This document shows positions 28,942 through 39,134 of a stretch of 64,000 nt of DNA, piece by piece. This stretch comes from Terriglobales bacterium. GTDB taxonomy: Bacteria > Acidobacteriota > Terriglobia > Terriglobales > Acidobacteriaceae. The notes below the pieces were generated by a model. That model ran no database searches. It was not told the origin of the DNA and was given only the letters and a program-made list of their open reading frames with translations. The stretch is from positions 1-64,000 of the forward strand of contig DATMXP010000043.1 of the NCBI GenBank assembly GCA_035561515.1. Reading direction: 5' to 3'. How positions within the stretch are numbered: the stretch's first letter is position 1; every line of letters starts with the position of its first letter. The position numbers and the translations under genes were made by a program.

Positions 28942-29430
28942 ATGTCTTCGATGATCACTCGTTGGGATCCCTTCCGTGAGCTGGCCCAGCTACAGGACCG
29001 CGTAAACCGCTTGTTCCAGGAAACTGGCGTGGGTGGACGTGAAGAGGGTATTTCCACAGCTTCTTTTGTTCCCCCGGTGGACATCTATGAGACTGAGCAG
29101 AACATCGTGCTGAAGATGGAAGTCCCGGGCGTGGAACAAAAGGACCTCGACATCCGGATCGAAAACAACACGATTACTGTTCGCGGCGAACGCAAGTTCG
29201 AAAAGGAAGTGAAGGAAGAGAACTTCCATCGCGTAGAACGGCGCTATGGATCATTCCAGCGCAGCTTCAGCCTGCCGAACACGGTGAACACTGAACAGGT
29301 TTCGGCCGATTACGACAATGGCGTACTGAAGATCACGCTGGCCAAGCGTGCAGAAGCAAAGCCGAAGCAGATCAAGGTAAATGTCGGAGGCGGACAGAAG
29401 ACCATCGAGTCCAAGGGCCAGGCGGCCTAA
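28942..29430 (+). CDS. Hsp20/alpha-crystallin small heat shock protein
   Basis: 162 residues starting MSSMITRWDPFRELAQLQD. The alpha-crystallin domain spans ~42-140, with PPVDIYETEQNIVLKMEVPG, NNTITVRGERK, FHRVERRYGSFQRSFSLP and the closing YDNGVLKITLAK. It is an ATP-independent holdase that binds unfolding proteins for later rescue by DnaK/ClpB. The ribosome binding site AGGAGG lies nine bases before the ATG. It precedes clpB by 90 bases and shares its HspR-type promoter. Confidence 0.95.
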   Translation: MSSMITRWDPFRELAQLQDRVNRLFQETGVGGREEGISTASFVPPVDIYETEQNIVLKMEVPGVEQKDLDIRIENNTITVRGERKFEKEVKEENFHRVERRYGSFQRSFSLPNTVNTEQVSADYDNGVLKITLAKRAEAKPKQIKVNVGGGQKTIESKGQAA

Positions 29431-29451
29431 GTGCTGTCTCTGGGAAACGGT

Positions 29452-29485
29452 GGGGAGCGGCGAGGGCTGCTCCCCTTGTTCTTTT
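29452..29485 (+). terminator. Attenuating hairpin between hsp20 and clpB
   Basis: GGGGAGC (29452-29458) pairs with GCTCCCC (29469-29475), followed by TTGTTCTTTT. It is a moderate intrinsic terminator placed inside the apparent operon, likely giving more hsp20 than clpB mRNA. Confidence 0.6.
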
Positions 29486-29520
29486 CACGCATTGATACCG
29501 AGTTATTGAGAGAAAACTGA

Positions 29521-32178
<2,658 letters not shown>

Positions 32179-32194
32179 CACTTACCGTTCATGC

Positions 32195-32225
32195 GAGCCC
32201 AGCCTATTCGGCTGGGCTCTTTCTT
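32195..32225 (+). terminator. Intrinsic terminator after clpB
   Basis: GAGCCCAGCC / GGCTGGGCTC, a perfect 10-bp stem with a TATTC loop, followed by TTTCTTTG. Confidence 0.85.
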
Positions 32226-32233
32226 TGAGCAGA

Positions 32234-32995
32234 TCAGTCCTTATGGGTGGTGATGTAGTACTGGTTACCCCAACCGTCGCGAACGGTTCCGCTTCTGCCG
32301 AAGGGCAGATCGGCCGGTTCAGAAAGCGAGACGGCTTCTCCGGCTACAGCACGCCGGTACCAGGCGTCGGCATTGTCCACATACAGAAGAAAGGCGGCAG
32401 GTAAATGCTGCCACGGACCGTGCGCTTCGCTAACTTCAATGACGGAGTCGGTGAGGCGGACTTTAGCATGGATGATGCGATTCCCTTCTTCAGGAACGAC
32501 TTCCACTTCATAAGGATCGGCGTCGAATGCTCTCTGTAGAAAACGGATGAACTCCTCGGCACCAGTGATGTGCAAATATGGCGTGATGGTTCCCAGGCCG
32601 GGACGGATGTAATTTCCTCCCTTATAGGTAGCGAGGTACCACTCGTTCCCCCAAGCATCTTTTAGCGCTGAGTCGCGGTCTCCGTACTCCTGGTCCGTCG
32701 GAGGCATCACTTCCGTTGCTCCGGCTGCAACAGCACGCTCATATGCGAGGTCTACGTTTGGCACATACATATGGAGTGCGGTTGGGCGCGGCTCCCCTTT
32801 CCACTCGCGCCCACCGCCGATCATCAGCATCGAGTCACCAACGCTGACTTCCAGGTGATATCCGCCCCCGCTGCCGATTCCCCGATAGGTCTCGCGTGCT
32901 TCGAAGGCTTTCTGGAGGAATTCCGACATTGCGGGCGGGTCAGAGTTGATGATGTAGGGAGTAAGTGTACGAAATCCGGGGCGAGCAGCACACAT
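32234..32995 (-). CDS. Tandem VOC (glyoxalase/PhnB-like) protein
   Basis: 253 residues made of two vicinal-oxygen-chelate units. Unit 1: TLTPYIINSDPPAMSEFLQK, HMYVPNVDLAYERAVAAGA, DRDSALKDAWGNEWYLAT. Unit 2: TITPYLHITGAEEFIRFLQR, FLLYVDNADAWYRRAVAG, RSGTVRDGWGNQYYITTH. Both keep the PhnB-like DxxGN(E/Q)W/Y ending. Typical metal ligands are only partly present. The function could be a dioxygenase-like or glyoxalase-like activity or antibiotic binding; not decidable. Convergent with clpB. Confidence 0.85.
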   Translation of the reverse strand: MCAARPGFRTLTPYIINSDPPAMSEFLQKAFEARETYRGIGSGGGYHLEVSVGDSMLMIGGGREWKGEPRPTALHMYVPNVDLAYERAVAAGATEVMPPTDQEYGDRDSALKDAWGNEWYLATYKGGNYIRPGLGTITPYLHITGAEEFIRFLQRAFDADPYEVEVVPEEGNRIIHAKVRLTDSVIEVSEAHGPWQHLPAAFLLYVDNADAWYRRAVAGEAVSLSEPADLPFGRSGTVRDGWGNQYYITTHKD

Positions 32996-33112
32996 CGGAG
33001 ACGATCCTCCTGATCAGGAATTCACTATCGAGTACTTTACGACAAAATCCGCCAAACGTTCGCGAGAGGGACATCACCGCACACGGGCAAGCCATCTGAC
33101 TCTCGTCACAAG

Positions 33113-33137
33113 CATCATGAATAACATGATGGAGGAG
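33113..33137 (+). promoter_or_regulatory. Perfect inverted repeat touching the ribosome binding site
   Basis: CATCATG (33113-33119), AATAA, CATGATG (33125-33131), immediately followed by and overlapping GGAGGAG (33131-33137), the ribosome binding site of the Gly/Ser-rich protein gene (ATG at 33146). It could be a dimeric regulator site or an mRNA hairpin that masks translation start. Confidence 0.45.
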
Positions 33138-33145
33138 AACTAAGG

Positions 33146-33655
33146 ATGCGCAAGATTTTGTTAGTGTTAGCTCTCTGCCTTGGCGTCAGCATGTTTCTGA
33201 TGGCGCAGGGTGGAGGTTCGGGTGGCGGTTCAGGGTCAGGTGGCACAGGCACGGGCTCTGGGTCTTCGACAGGCGCTACTACGGGTAGCGACCAGACCGG
33301 GAGCCAGAGCACTGGAACTTCGTCTACGGGTACCGGTGGCTCGACTTCCTCAGGCGCACAAACGGACTCTCAGTCGGGCACGGGCGGGATGAGCGGCTCC
33401 GCGGCCGGCCAGAGCGGGACCTCAGGTACAACGGGCTCGCAGGCTGACCAGAGCGGCACGAGCGGTAACGTGGGCGGCAGCCCTGACAGCGGAAGCACCA
33501 CCGGAACTAGCGCGAGCACGTCTTCAGGCAATACGGCTCCAGCAGGTCAGGGAACGGATCAACAAGGCAGCGATAAGGGCGGGGGAGAAATCGCCCTGGC
33601 TACCATGGCAGCTCTCGGACTCGGTACCAGCTTGATCCGTCGCTACCGGAAGTAA
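33146..33655 (+). CDS. Secreted Gly/Ser/Thr-rich protein with PEP-CTERM-like sorting tail
   Basis: 169 residues. A signal peptide (KILLVLALCLGVSMFLMAQ) is followed by ~120 residues of almost pure Gly, Ser, Thr, Gln and Asp, without Cys or a folded-domain pattern. The last 25 residues (145-169) are GGGE, a short hydrophobic stretch IALATMAALGLGTSLI and the basic tail RRYRK. That is the tripartite layout of PEP-CTERM/GlyGly-CTERM sorting signals, with GGGE in place of PEP. The next gene, 13 bases on, is an exosortase-like protein, its likely processing enzyme. It probably becomes a surface or exopolysaccharide-linked, possibly O-glycosylated protein. Sorting is inferred, not shown. Confidence 0.8.
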   Translation: MRKILLVLALCLGVSMFLMAQGGGSGGGSGSGGTGTGSGSSTGATTGSDQTGSQSTGTSSTGTGGSTSSGAQTDSQSGTGGMSGSAAGQSGTSGTTGSQADQSGTSGNVGGSPDSGSTTGTSASTSSGNTAPAGQGTDQQGSDKGGGEIALATMAALGLGTSLIRRYRK

Positions 33656-33668
33656 CACTCTCTCGCTG

Positions 33669-34208
33669 ATGTCTTCAACAACGGTAAACCCTGCATGGCT
33701 CGGCGGTCGATGGCGTGACCGCCGGGCCACACTCATTGTTGCGCGCTTTGTGCTCGCGGCGCTTGCGGTCGGAGTGTGCTATAGCTTCGAATGGCATTGG
33801 CTCCGTCAATTAACTATGGAGCTGAACCTCCGTTTGGACGCGCTCCTTGGAGTAACGCTGCAACGCGTCTCCGAAACAACAGTGATGTGGCAGGGCGGTT
33901 TCTACCACTACGTGATCGCGTGTACGTTCGCCGACGCGTGGTGCGCGTCTATACCTCTTACCTGGAACCAGCGAGCCACGCTTCGTTCCAACCTTCTCTT
34001 CCTTGCCGGATTCACATTGGTGCTCTTCGCGGTCAACATCGTGCGTCTCAGCCTCTCGGATGTACTGGTGGCACGCGGACTTTCGTGGAACATGGGGCAC
34101 AACGTGGTAAGCGGGATCTCCTATTTTCTGCTCTGGAAATTCGTGTGGTGGCGGCTAATGGAATTTGTGAGACCTGCTGCGGCTGAATCGGAAGCTCAGA
34201 CGGTATAG
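33669..34208 (+). CDS. Exosortase/archaeosortase-like membrane transpeptidase
   Basis: 179 residues with about four or five hydrophobic helices. The exosortase catalytic pattern is present: Cys85 in VIACTFADA, Arg126 in AVNIVRLSL (41 residues later, the same distance as Cys173-Arg214 in haloarchaeal ArtA), and His144 in WNMGHNVVSG, followed by a last helix ending in a basic residue. Exosortases cut the CTERM tail in the membrane and attach or release the substrate. It is shorter than EpsH-type XrtA, like the single-substrate subfamilies. It lies in an operon with the tailed protein. The rhomboid GxSG motif is absent, so it is not a rhombosortase. The specific subfamily is unknown. Confidence 0.72.
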   Translation: MSSTTVNPAWLGGRWRDRRATLIVARFVLAALAVGVCYSFEWHWLRQLTMELNLRLDALLGVTLQRVSETTVMWQGGFYHYVIACTFADAWCASIPLTWNQRATLRSNLLFLAGFTLVLFAVNIVRLSLSDVLVARGLSWNMGHNVVSGISYFLLWKFVWWRLMEFVRPAAAESEAQTV

Positions 34209-34211
34209 CAG

Positions 34212-34613
34212 CTATTTTCGGTCCTTGTTGTTCGGCGGGGTGGGTGGAACACTGACACGGCGAATCGGGATGATGGCGCCCTGAGCTGGGTTTGGCTGGT
34301 GAATGCGCGCCATCATTTCCTGTTGCAGGCTCCGCATGAATTCCTTCATTTCCTTTTGCATCTGGTCCATGCGTTCCCGCATTTGCAGGATGATGGCGAT
34401 ACCGGAAATGTTCACGCCGAGGTCACGGGCGAGGGTGAGGATGAACTCCAGACGCTCGAGATCTTCGTCAGTGTAAAGGCGGGTGTTCCCTTCCGTACGG
34501 GATGGCTTCAGCAAGCCCTCACGTTCGTAGAGCCGAAGGGTCTGCGGATGAATTTCGTACATCTCCGCGACGGAGGAGATCATGTAAGCGCCTTTGGATT
34601 TACGTTTAGCCAT
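34212..34613 (-). CDS. hspR: HspR, MerR-family heat shock repressor
   Basis: 133 residues: the MerR winged helix (ISSVAEMYEIHPQTLRLYER, EGLLKPSRTEGNTRLY) followed by LERLEFILTLARDLGVNISG, the HspR-specific helix, then a coiled coil (LQMRERMDQMQKEMKEFM) and a Pro-rich basic tail. HspR binds HAIR operators together with DnaK as co-repressor and represses dnaK and clpB operons, as known in actinobacteria and some proteobacteria. Matching HAIR sites lie before dnaK and hsp20. It is downstream of dnaK-dnaJ on the same strand, so it is probably autoregulated. Convergent with the exosortase-like gene. Confidence 0.93.
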   Translation of the reverse strand: MAKRKSKGAYMISSVAEMYEIHPQTLRLYEREGLLKPSRTEGNTRLYTDEDLERLEFILTLARDLGVNISGIAIILQMRERMDQMQKEMKEFMRSLQQEMMARIHQPNPAQGAIIPIRRVSVPPTPPNNKDRK

Positions 34614-34624
34614 GCAACAGGGTC

Positions 34625-35065
34625 CTATCTCTTGCGATCAAGCTGAATGGTCACTCCACGAGTTTTCAGCACTTGGTACTCAATTTCGCCTGCAGCATAC
34701 GTCACACCCAGAGTTCGAGGACCGATCCAGTTTGCTTCGATGGGGCCTGATGCGTTTACCAGTGTCAGCACCTCAAATCCGTCCTTAACTCCGTCCACTT
34801 TCGCATTGCTCAATACAACGTGGACGCGGTCCGCAGCTGCCGCTCCACATTCGGTTCTAAACAGAGTTGCCTTCGCGGTCGAGTCGGCATTGGTGGTGGT
34901 GTGATCGACTGTGATATCGCAGAAACCTCTAGTAAAGCGGTCAACCAAGAAATTTCCGCCTAAGTACACCAGCGCAAGCAATCCGAATACGGCTAGACCG
35001 TTCCAGGCCCACGAAATGTAGCGCGGCCTAAAACTGACAATACGCTGTTCCTCGACAGAGGTCAT
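34625..35065 (-). CDS. Single-pass membrane protein, unknown
   Basis: 146 residues. A cytoplasmic N-terminus (VEEQRIVSFRPRYISWAW) is followed by one helix (NGLAVFGLLALVYLGGNFL) and an exported ~110-residue beta-rich domain with two Cys (GFCDITVDH and FRTECGAAA) that could form a disulphide. No family was recognised. It sits between a GNAT gene and hspR, 11-12 bases from each, so it is probably part of the heat-shock unit. A link to envelope stress is speculation. Confidence 0.7.
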   Translation of the reverse strand: MTSVEEQRIVSFRPRYISWAWNGLAVFGLLALVYLGGNFLVDRFTRGFCDITVDHTTTNADSTAKATLFRTECGAAAADRVHVVLSNAKVDGVKDGFEVLTLVNASGPIEANWIGPRTLGVTYAAGEIEYQVLKTRGVTIQLDRKR

Positions 35066-35077
35066 ACTTCTCAGTCC

Positions 35078-35584
35078 TCACCTTGCGGAGATACTCCACA
35101 CATCATGCAACAACCCTTTCCACATGATCTGCCGCGTTTTGCGCAACCCATTTTTCTCCGCCACACGCGCAGACGCAACGTTTTCCGGACGGATGAGCGA
35201 AATCACATGATCCACTCCGGCATTCGCCAGGGCCCAATCGAGGCACGCTTTCGCAGCTTCGGTTGCATACCCACGGTTCCAGTGCGAACGATGGAAGTGG
35301 TACCCGACTTCCAATTCCGGCCCGGTTTCCAGGTCCTGCCAGACCATGCCGCAGTCACCGATGAACTCACCCGTTGACTTCAACTCCACGCCGAAGAGGC
35401 CATATCCATACTCCGCGTACCGGTCGGCATTTTTCGCAATCCATTCCTCCACAAACTCCCGCGAAAACGGCGCCGGATAGTGCAACATCGTCTTCGCGTC
35501 GCCCAGATATGCGTGCATCGAGTCGAGATCATCAGATCGCAGGTAGCGGAGTCTCAGCCGTTCGGTCTCAAGCACACAGGTCAT
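35078..35584 (-). CDS. GNAT family N-acetyltransferase (RimJ/RimL-like)
   Basis: 168 residues beginning CVLETERLRLRYLRSDDLDS, the usual RimJ/RimL start. It continues with ELEVGYHFHRSHWNRGYATE (the acetyl-CoA pyrophosphate loop Q/RxxGxG/A, here RGYATEA) and HVISLIRPENVASARVAEKN. It transfers acetyl groups from acetyl-CoA to an amine, often a protein N-terminus or small molecule; substrate unknown. It lies between dnaJ and the membrane protein gene inside the dnaK-hspR run. Confidence 0.88.
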   Translation of the reverse strand: MTCVLETERLRLRYLRSDDLDSMHAYLGDAKTMLHYPAPFSREFVEEWIAKNADRYAEYGYGLFGVELKSTGEFIGDCGMVWQDLETGPELEVGYHFHRSHWNRGYATEAAKACLDWALANAGVDHVISLIRPENVASARVAEKNGLRKTRQIMWKGLLHDVWSISAR

Positions 35585-35662
35585 TAGTTCTTAGTATTTG
35601 GTCGCTAGCCTTCACGTTAGACCCGCACCACTAAGTACTAACTACTAACGACTAAATACTAG
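35583..35662. repeat. TAGTACTTAGTAGTTAGTAT-type dispersed repeat, two inverted copies
   Basis: One copy runs TTAGTTCTTAGTATTTGGTC (35584-35603). A second lies on the minus strand at 35626-35662 as CTAGTATTTAGTCGTTAG plus TAGTTAGTACTTAG. The dnaJ stop codon lies inside the second copy. A third copy is at 36889-36920 just before dnaJ. AT-rich, non-coding, probably mobile or slippage-derived. Confidence 0.55.
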
Positions 35663-36885
35663 ATTTCCTTCCACAACTCCGCCCGCGGATCTTCCGGGTT
35701 CAACTTCGCCAGTTCGCGCAATATCTCCTTCGACCGCTCATCGTGCACATGCGGAACGGTGATCTTCACCTCCACGATCTCGTCTCCGCGATGGCCTTCC
35801 TTCGTTGCCGACGGGACACCTTTCTCCCGCAGACGCAGTTTCTGCCCGGACTGGGTTCCGGGAGGAATGCGCAGCAGTGCGCGGCCGTCGATCGTCGGGA
35901 CTTCCACCTTCGCGCCCAGCGCAGCTTCGGTCGGCGACACGGGAACGGTCAGGTAGATGTCATCGCCCTCGCGCCGGAACACCGGATGTGAACCCGTCCG
36001 AATGATGATGTAGAGATCGCCGGGAGCTCCGCCGCGCGGGCCGGCATTTCCGCGACCCGCCAGACGAATGCGCTGGCCGTCGCGGGTGCCCGCCTTGATT
36101 CGGACTGTAATCGGCTCGCTGCGATTGACCACCCCCTGACCACCGCAGACGGAACACAGCGTGCGCGATTTGCCACTTCCACCACAACGCGGACAAACGG
36201 TGTTGAACTTCATGCGTCCGCTCTGCTGCTGTATGTGGCCTGATCCTCCGCACTCCGGACAAACACCGGGTGCTTCCAGGTAGCCCTTGCCATGACAATT
36301 GCCGCAACTGGCCAACCGTGTAATGTTCAGGCGAAGCTCGTCGCCGCGGATCGCCTGCCAGAATCCGACGTTGACCTGGTACTCAAGGTCGGTGCCGGGC
36401 TCGGGGCCTTCCTGTTCCATGCCGAATCCGCCGCGCTGACCTCCACCGAAGATGCCGGAGAAGATGTCGCGGAAACCGCCGCCGGCGCGACCGGTCTGTT
36501 GCTGGGCACCAGCGCCACCACTGAAGATGTCAGAAAAATCGAACCCGCTGAAGTCGAACGGGACGCCTTGTCCTTGAGGACCGCCGCCAGGAGTGGGGCC
36601 GTATCCGCCCTGTTGCGCGCGCGCGTAGGCCTCTGCCGCGGCAGGATCGATCTGGTCGGAGTAGTACCCGAGCTGGTCGTAGAGCTTGCGCTTCTTCGGG
36701 TCGGAAAGGACGTCGTTCGCTTCCGATATTTGCTTGAACTTTTCTTCTGCTGCTTTATCGCCCGGGTTGACGTCGGGGTGATATTTGCGGGCAAGTTTGC
36801 GGAACGCCTTCCGAATGTCTTCGGCGGAGGCCGACTTCTTCACCCCGAGGGTGTTGTAGTAGTCCTTTTTGGTGGTTGCGGGCAT
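35659..36885 (-). CDS. dnaJ: Chaperone DnaJ (Hsp40)
   Basis: 408 residues: J domain (8-73) with HPD at 36-38, a Gly/Phe-rich linker (~90-150, repeated [13 protein letters not shown]), four zinc-finger motifs ([32 protein letters not shown]) and the C-terminal substrate domain ending [10 protein letters not shown]. It stimulates DnaK ATPase and delivers substrates. The linker is long for a type I DnaJ. It follows dnaK by ~200 bases with repeats between them; no grpE lies between or nearby. Confidence 0.96.
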
Positions 36886-36888
36886 TCA

Positions 36889-36920
36889 GTAATTAGTACT
36901 TGGTAGTTAGTATTTAGTCC
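36889..36920. repeat. Copy of TAGTACTTAGTAGTTAGTAT-type repeat
   Basis: TAATTAGTACTTGGTAGTT followed by AGTATTTAGTCC, directly upstream of the dnaJ start. It matches the copies at 35583-35662. It replaces any obvious separate promoter for dnaJ. Confidence 0.5.
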
Positions 36921-36995
36921 TTCGCATCAACGATCTCAAGAAGAATGCGAACCACACGAACTGTATCGCCAATTCTCATCCACAAAAATGAGAGA

Positions 36996-37051
36996 GCCAC
37001 GGACGAACACGGAAAGTAACGGAGTGAATCCGTGTCCGTGACATCCGTGGC
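36996..37051. repeat. Large imperfect inverted repeat in the dnaK-dnaJ gap
   Basis: GCCACGGACGAACACGGA (36996-37013) pairs with TCCGTGTCCGTG plus CATCCGTGGC (37029-37051), with a small bulge. The words CACGGACGAACACGGA recall the other purine-rich repeats at 411 and 25851. It may act as a processing hairpin that lets dnaK exceed dnaJ expression. Confidence 0.55.
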
Positions 37052-37087
37052 GCGTTCAAAACAGCGCGAGCGAGACGCTGGCACTAC

Positions 37088-39022
37088 TTACTTCTTGTCT
37101 TCAACGTCCACGTATTCGGCGTCGATCACGCCTTCGTCTTTCTTCTGCTGCTGGCCTGGGCCTGCTCCGTCGGTGCCCGGAGTCGGTCCAGCCTGCGGAC
37201 CACCCGGTTGCGCCTGCTGAGCTGTCGCCTTATACATCTGCTCGGCCAGCTTGTGCGAAGCCTGGGTCAGACGTTCCCGCGCGGAATCCATCTGCCCCTT
37301 GTCATTCGACTCGAGCGCCTTCTTGGCATCCGCGAGGGCGTTTTCGACCTGCTGGCGCTCATCGCCGGAGATCTTGTCGCCATGCTCGCGGAACATCTTT
37401 TCGATGTTGTAGACCATACCGTCGAGCTGGTTCTTCGACTCGATCGCCTCGCGCGCGGCTTTGTCCTCGGCGGAGTGGGCATCGGCTTCCTTCGCCATGC
37501 GCTCCACTTCTTCCTTCGATAAGCCCGACGAGGAAGTGATGGTGATCTTCTGGTCCTTGCCGGTTGCCTGGTCTTTCGCGGTGACGTTCAGGATGCCGTT
37601 CGCGTCGATGTCGAACGTGACTTCGATCTGCGGCACGCCACGCGGCGCCGGCATAATGCCCGTCAGATGGAACTTGCCGAGCGTGCGGTTCTGCCCCGCC
37701 ATCGGACGCTCGCCCTGCAGCACGTGAACCTCAACCGAGGTCTGACTGTCTGCCGCGGTCGAGAAGATCTCACTCTTGCGAGTCGGGATCGTGGTGTTGC
37801 GCGGGATCATCGGCGTCGAAACACCGCCCAGCGTTTCGATCGACAGCGTCAGCGGGGTCACGTCGAGCAGCAGCAGGTCTTTCACTTCGCCGCCGAGCAC
37901 ACCGCCCTGAATTGCCGCGCCGATTGCGACGACTTCGTCGGGGTTCACTCCCTTGTGGGGTTCCTTCCCGAAGAGATCTTTCACCAGCTTCTGAATCGCA
38001 GGCATACGCGTCTGGCCACCGACAAGCACTACTTCGTCGATCTTGTCGGCTGTAACGCCTGCATCCTTCATCGCCTGACGGCATGGAGCAGTCGAACGCT
38101 CAATGATGTCGCGAACCATCTCTTCCAGCTTCGCGCGGGTGAGCTTCTTAACGAGGTGCTTCGGACCGGTCGCATCTGCCGTGATAAACGGCAGATTGAT
38201 CTCGGTCTCCATCGTGGTAGAAAGCTCGATCTTCGCGCGCTCTGCGGCGTCACGCAGGCGCTGAAGGGCCATTTCGTTGCCCTTGGCGCGGAGGTCGAGG
38301 CCTTCGTCTTTCTTGAACTCGTCGATAAGCCAATCGACGATGCGCTGGTCAAGGTTGTCGCCGCCGAGGTGCGTATCACCGTTGGTGGATTTCACCTCAA
38401 TGACGCCTTCGCCAACTTCAAGAATCGAGATATCGAAGGTGCCGCCACCGAAGTCGTACACAGCGATGGTTTCGTCCTTCTTCTTGTCGAGCCCGTATGC
38501 AAGCGCAGCGGCCGTGGGCTCGTTGATGATGCGCTTCACGTTCAGACCGGCGATCTGGCCGGCGTCTTTCGTAGCCTGGCGCTGTGCGTCGTTGAAGTAG
38601 GCCGGGACCGTGATAACCGCGTCGGAGATGCTTTCACCGAGGAAGTCTTCGGCCGCCTTCTTCAACTTCTGCAAGATCATGGCCGAAATCTGCGGTGGCG
38701 TGTGCTTCTTTCCCTGCGCCATGATGGCGACGTGGTCGCCTTCACGCTCCACCGTGTAGGGGACCATCTTCATTTCTTCGTTTACTTCGTCGTAGCGGCG
38801 TCCCATGAACCGCTTGATCGAGTACACCGTGTTGCCGGGATTGGTGATGGCCTGACGCTTCGCGACCTGACCCACCAGTCGCTCACCCGACTGTGTAAAT
38901 GCAACGACAGAAGGGGTGGTGCGACCGCCTTCTTCGTTCGCGATGACCTTCGGCTCGCCGCCTTCCATGACGGCCACCACCGAGTTGGTGGTGCCGAGGT
39001 CAATACCGATAATCTTTGCCAT
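37088..39022 (-). CDS. dnaK: Chaperone DnaK (Hsp70)
   Basis: 644 residues. Nucleotide-binding domain: [56 protein letters not shown] and [16 protein letters not shown]. The linker [19 protein letters not shown] precedes the substrate-binding beta domain, the helical lid, and a disordered C-terminus rich in Gly/Gln/Pro ending [11 protein letters not shown]. It is the central ATP-driven foldase, working with DnaJ and ClpB here, and in HspR-type systems it serves as co-repressor. The ribosome binding site GAAGGAGG is seven bases before the ATG. It starts the dnaK-dnaJ-hspR run. Confidence 0.98.
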
Positions 39023-39104: not shown

Positions 39105-39134
39105 AATATAGAACTTGAGTGTCTTACTGTCAAG
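39105..39134 (-). promoter_or_regulatory. dnaK promoter with HAIR operator for HspR
   Basis: On the minus strand TTGACA (39133-39128), 17-base spacer, TATATT (39110-39105). CTTGACA-N7-ACTCAAG covers 39134-39114 and matches the HAIR consensus CTTGAGT-N7-ACTCAAG at 12 of 14 arm positions. The left arm contains the -35 box, so bound HspR would block RNA polymerase. The hsp20 promoter has the same design. Confidence 0.82.

Follow-up and report, generated by a model that had tools for sequence, protein, structure and literature searches.

The chemistry and the cleavage site of exosortases are not well defined, in part because XrtA acts on many substrates and contains many helices. A transpeptidase role has been suggested for exosortases and archaeosortases (PMC11980579), and a C-terminal tripartite sorting logic is also followed by the myxosortase/MYXO-CTERM system (PMC11980579). 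In Vibrio cholerae, cleavage at GlyGly-CTERM exposes a glycine and a glycerophosphoethanolamine-containing group is attached (PMC6219818). Some rhombosortase systems are dedicated, with the enzyme and a single target encoded side by side (PMC3237569).

The window, that is, the whole stretch of 64,000 nucleotides from a Terriglobales bacterium analysed here, contains two neighbouring genes on the plus strand that can be compared with these systems. The first (33146-33655) encodes a secreted, Gly/Ser/Thr-rich protein of 169 amino acids, the tailed substrate, recognised by its open reading frame, its signal peptide, its composition and the presence of such a tailed partner upstream of the enzyme in all eight loci found. 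After 13 bases it is followed by the gene for a compact membrane enzyme of 179 amino acids (33669-34208), assigned to the exosortases by a family profile, a paralogue linked to exosortase X and the order of elements in an AlphaFold model. Reading frame lengths, gap, tail and the positions of the named residues are all exactly as the preliminary description had given them. From the sequences we consider it very probable that the pair is a self-contained one-substrate sorting unit, in which the compact exosortase would cut the tail at or next to GGG and transfer the body of the substrate.

With XrtA/PEP-CTERM (PF09721, TIGR02595) the pair shares the order of Cys, NxxR and His, strands before the Cys, a long Arg helix and a tripartite tail on a secreted substrate. 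However, XrtA has extra N-terminal helices and a Pro-Glu-Pro motif, whereas the window pair has neither a PF09721 match nor a Pro-Glu-Pro tail, and XrtA serves many targets (23 PEP-CTERM proteins in this genome) where the window enzyme has one. The archaeosortases (ArtA, ArtE, ArtH) likewise carry out Cys-based C-terminal processing and weak matches to ArtH and ArtE were obtained, but they are archaeal, use PGF and related motifs, and the scores of the window family are far below their cut-offs. Rhombosortase/GlyGly-CTERM (TIGR03902, TIGR03501) resembles the pair in the glycine-glycine tail and the dedicated arrangement of adjacent genes; in contrast to the exosortase-like Cys protein of the window, rhombosortase is a serine rhomboid, and the two models recognise neither gene. 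Myxosortase is a CAAX-type protease with a Cys-containing signal, whereas the tails of the window family are free of Cys. Exosortase X and exosortase Y (NF046081, NF046083) are short, with a model length of 168, and match a paralogue of the window enzyme (L004) but not the window family itself; this comparison covers the enzymes.

Relatives of the enzyme were gathered from the same bacterial family, from named Acidobacteriota records and from the same class. After merging of duplicates (L011 with L007, L013 with L009, L083 with L012), the family comprised eight non-redundant members: the window, L003, L007, L008, L009, L010, L012 and L086. Direct scans of the window enzyme against the NCBIfam and Pfam models gave nothing above cut-off: TIGR04178 scored 9.4 bits (E = 1.3, cut-off 23), ArtE 13.1 bits (E = 0.071) and ArtH 12.6 bits, and neither PF09721 nor any other Pfam model was matched. 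The best ArtH score in the family was 18, against a cut-off of 200. One member, L012, matched the models of archaeosortase H (0.0022) and TIGR04178 (0.019), again below the curated cut-offs, which no family member reached; these cut-offs define the curated annotation, not the superfamily itself. The majority consensus of the family matched no model and thus performed worse than the direct scans, and an hhalign comparison of the family with 11 XrtA-type cores yielded an insignificant, out-of-register alignment.

A profile of seven family members, on the other hand, found the distant paralogue L004, which is encoded on contig C6 of the same genome and was not part of the profile, at 1.3e-15. This paralogue in turn gives matches to exosortase X (1e-5), to exosortase Y (3.6e-4) and to TIGR04178 (0.0024), all below the curated cut-offs. 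Since the direct scores stay under the curated cut-offs, superfamily membership rests on this homology chain, the motif and the fold; judged by the chain, the window enzyme is a member of the exosortase/archaeosortase superfamily. The exosortase identity suggested in the preliminary description was thus not returned by a direct model match above cut-off, but it did emerge through the paralogue and its link to exosortase X. The models of XrtX, XrtY, ArtD, ArtE and XrtF have 150-174 positions, so that 179 amino acids are ordinary for a short exosortase family.

The residues expected of an exosortase, Cys, N-x-x-R and His, are all present in the window enzyme and in the expected order, as previously proposed. 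Conservation was read from an alignment of nine sequences (the eight family members and the paralogue L004) that is ungapped from Cys85 to His144. Invariant in all nine are Cys85, the predicted nucleophile (33921-33923, plus strand), Thr86, Pro96, Trp99, Asn108, Asn123, Arg126 and Trp140; the Asn123-x-x-Arg126 motif lies at 34035-34046 of the plus strand, with Arg126 at 34044-34046. The third predicted catalytic residue, His144 (34098-34100, plus strand), is a His in six of the nine sequences and an Asp in L008, L012 and L086, three of the eight family members, which form one branch. In the window enzyme, 41 residues separate Cys from Arg and 18 separate Arg from His. The Cys-to-Arg spacing of ArtA is also 41. 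For ordinary exosortases, including XrtA, the two spacings are 45 and 21 in about 30 related loci wherever the motif was readable. The unusual closeness of His to Arg that had been pointed out earlier is therefore a real difference, but one of merely three residues.

The AlphaFold model of the window enzyme, built from a seven-member alignment, has a pLDDT of 82.7 and consists of the elements H12-37, H43-59, E71-74, E77-80, H83-86, H88-98, H105-135 and H140-167. The model for the XrtA core of the same genome (pLDDT 82.6) shows H137-157, E163-165, E168-171, E174-177, H178-181, H183-202, H206-237, H240-251 and H253-272 near the active site, which comprises Cys182, Arg227 and His248. According to these models, the order of secondary structure elements in the window enzyme is that of XrtA: strands, Cys helix, long Arg helix, His helix. 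In both, the Cys is located at a break after the strands, which in the window enzyme form a predicted periplasmic beta-hairpin (residues 71-80; 33879-33908, plus strand) with an equivalent in the XrtA model. The Arg precedes the end of the long helix by nine residues (Arg126) or ten residues (Arg227), and a little way into the next helix, which in the window enzyme begins just before His144, comes the His. A Foldseek search with the window enzyme model against PDB and viral models gave no match. The charge distribution of the enzyme fits an inside location of the N-terminus, the loop 99-107 and the C-terminus, which would place Cys85, Arg126 and His144 at the outer, periplasmic face.

The substrate begins with a Sec-type signal peptide, MRKILLVLALCLGVSMFLMAQ (33146-33208, plus strand), with a cleavage site placed near AQ by eye; the signal peptides of the Gly/Ser-bodied relatives finish alike, with MAQ or IAQ. 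Its body consists to 92% of G, S, T, N, Q and A. The C-terminus carries the putative tripartite sorting signal, SDKGGGE-IALATMAALGLGTSLI-RRYRK (33569-33652, plus strand), which is matched by the tail profile, and the proposed cleavage region is the GGG within it (33578-33586, plus strand). The tails of the eight upstream partners are KGGGEIALATMAALGLGTSLIRRYRK, KGGGAIAVVTLAAMGAASGLIRRYRR, KGGGEIALGTFLGLAALWEVSRRKK, KGGGTIALGVFLGLTGVWVATRRKR, GGGGSVALLTLAALVAFWSLTRVRRKK, GGGGSVALLTFVALLALWSLGRLWRSKR, MGGGRISLLTFVALLALWSVRLLWRDKR and EGGPSALGMLVFALLVTGWFAWTRRK, and every one of them runs from GG(G) through a hydrophobic segment to basic residues at the end. A GGxE recognition motif had been suggested for the window tail; its glycines are retained in 8/8 tails, but the position of the Glu is occupied by E, A, E, T, S, S, R and P. 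GGxE was thus rejected as the motif, and the signal is better described as GG(G) with a variable residue after it.

The bodies in front of these tails differ: four are Gly/Ser/Thr-rich, three look Ig-like and one is a repeat protein with NHL repeats (PF01436 at 2.3e-25). The Ig-like-looking bodies are short, non-repetitive domains whose likeness was judged by eye, and the two of the three that were tested had no Pfam match; they are found on the substrates of the Asp144 branch, in place of the Gly/Ser repeats. A large substrate encoded next to an exosortase-like gene (L013:3372-5948, plus strand) has about five repeated N-terminal modules, NHL repeats and a tail of the EGGPSALG type. A profile made from the tails of Gly/Ser-bodied substrates alone found the L008 tail (7e-7) and the L012 tail (0.0019) ahead of all other ORFs, and did not reach the L009 tail. 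A tail that stays conserved on unrelated bodies is characteristic of a sorting signal.

On this basis the following course of events can be proposed. The upstream protein would be exported by Sec and lose its signal peptide, and its C-terminal helix with RRYRK would stop in the inner membrane, leaving GGG at the periplasmic face. Cys85, aided by Arg126 and His144, would then attack the chain at or beside GGG; the hydrophobic-basic tail would be removed by this core-only exosortase and the substrate body transferred to an acceptor that is probably a lipid bearing an amine. The substrate would end up anchored at the surface or released. We infer from the sequences that the tail is cleaved, at which bond, what the acceptor is and where the substrate finally resides, and the enzyme probably cuts the glycine-glycine tail of the adjacent secreted protein and thereby places it on the cell surface.

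It might also be that the substrate is an envelope protein anchored by an uncleaved tail, and that its partner is a non-catalytic exosortase derivative serving as insertase, immunity protein or scaffold. The replacement of His144 in one branch would agree with this, as would the enzyme being much shorter than XrtA and the indirect nature of the argument for cleavage. However, Cys85, Asn123 and Arg126 are unchanged at 20-47% identity, the tail persists on completely different bodies, as cleavable sorting signals do, and curated exosortase families of about 170 amino acids exist; we regard an uncleaved anchor as unlikely.

The genome of the window also encodes a conventional system: the PF09721 exosortase in it is a single XrtA on contig C46, and 23 PEP-CTERM tails score above cut-off. 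The window tail is not among these PEP-CTERM matches. With its Gly/Ser-rich motif, hydrophobic stretch and basic end the tail does resemble GlyGly-CTERM, and the genome has four rhomboid-like matches, so that the tail might be cut by a rhombosortase, the neighbouring membrane protein being an accessory or chaperone. None of the four rhomboids reaches the rhombosortase cut-off, though (the best scores 53 of 84 bits), and rhomboid-like matches are equally loose in 14 of 14 control genomes. Furthermore, the GlyGly-CTERM model has no match even at E = 1 in the window's genome (G000) or in G029 and G544, and processing by a rhombosortase would leave the invariant Cys and NxxR of the adjacent gene unexplained. 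Such processing is slightly less probable still than an uncleaved anchor.

The preferred reading, a dedicated exosortase with its own substrate, is supported by the co-occurrence of the two genes. In 8/8 non-redundant loci, a protein with a signal peptide and a tail of the GG(G)-hydrophobic-basic type is encoded immediately upstream of the enzyme on the same strand, at a distance of a few bases or with overlap, so that the expected constant company of a GG-tailed protein was indeed observed. For six of the enzymes (L007, L008, L009, L010, L012 and L086), a profile or pattern search came first and the neighbour was inspected afterwards. The loci span several genera and their flanking genes differ, showing that just the two genes travel together. 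Among 398 genomes of the bacterial family, enzyme and tail occur in the same five, with one tail apiece. In each of these five genomes the tail profile has a single strong match of 48-65 bits, which is in every case the neighbour of the enzyme, and the next best match in the 398 genomes has 21 bits; since the profile was trained on the same five tails that it recovers, this rules out extra copies and orphan tails and is not independent proof of the signal. Sub-threshold matches were considered as further substrates and discarded, as they are internal helices or lie in wrong frames and do not match C-termini. When a GG-hydrophobic-basic tail filter, written after the tails had been seen, was applied to 290 distinct long ORFs from the loci and a section of the window, 8 passed, and seven of these were enzyme neighbours known at that stage.

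A single target per genome, encoded beside the enzyme in five genomes, fits a dedicated system as defined in PMC3237569, and the one-substrate pairing put forward in the preliminary description is borne out by the adjacency and by the one tail per enzyme-bearing genome. A chance meeting of a low-complexity repeat protein with an unrelated membrane protein, conceivable since Gly/Ser-rich and hydrophobic ORFs are common and no curated model matched, is refuted by this co-occurrence across genera, differing flanks and the same five genomes, and together with the invariance of Cys85, Asn123 and Arg126 the adjacency puts the pair beyond coincidence. All family members found come from Acidobacteriota, the widest search being one of about 85,000 species with a single short motif. 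A search of genome contigs with the single enzyme protein as query returned no relatives, viral contigs contained no such enzyme, and a weak enzyme match (L087) was dismissed as spurious, belonging to a glycosidase locus.

The enzyme probably represents an exosortase subfamily that is so far undescribed and acts as a dedicated system for one substrate; the idea of a new subfamily gains support from the lack of a curated model in NCBIfam (June 2026) or Pfam. The sorting logic as such is already known; new are a subfamily without curated model, a GG(G)-type signal and a natural His-to-Asp branch. We lean slightly towards the view that this subfamily converged on a GG motif resembling that of rhombosortases, to which it is unrelated, operates beside XrtA/PEP-CTERM without shared targets and in one branch uses Asp for His. 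The 179-residue enzyme and the adjacent 169-residue substrate make a minimal system that could be transferred whole into a test host, and the natural His-to-Asp series could be used for probing the third catalytic residue. A GG-type signal is added to the list for exosortases, and such enzyme-substrate pairs escape current annotation.

The pair is flanked upstream by a glyoxalase-like gene (32234-32995) and downstream by a gene for a MerR-type regulator (34212-34613). Since both are on the minus strand, the substrate and enzyme genes most likely form their own plus strand transcription unit; a scan for a promoter or terminator of the pair found none. The pair is inserted in a heat-shock cluster (hsp20, clpB, MerR regulator, dnaJ, dnaK; 28942-39022), between clpB/hsp20 and dnaJ/dnaK, and relatives carry it in other neighbourhoods. 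Heat-shock control of the pair was considered and rejected, because no HspR-type site was found near it and its flanking genes are different ones in relatives. A sequence nearly matching the HspR (HAIR) operator, CTTGAGTGTCTTACTGTCAAG (39114-39134), is located just upstream of dnaK (37088-39022, minus strand); near-matches across the whole window are not rarer than expected by chance. The MerR-type regulator could be HspR.

Contig C6 of the same genome (L071:1396-1962 and L071:2582-3805, both minus strand) encodes a second unannotated exosortase-like protein, with the exosortase X match at 1e-5. Its gene is located two genes downstream of one for a metallopeptidase of the M35 lysine type (PF14521, 5e-45), a protein with a signal peptide and a C-terminus of QVPM, a hydrophobic stretch and RVRRRK. 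Possibly, these two form another dedicated pair with a different motif.
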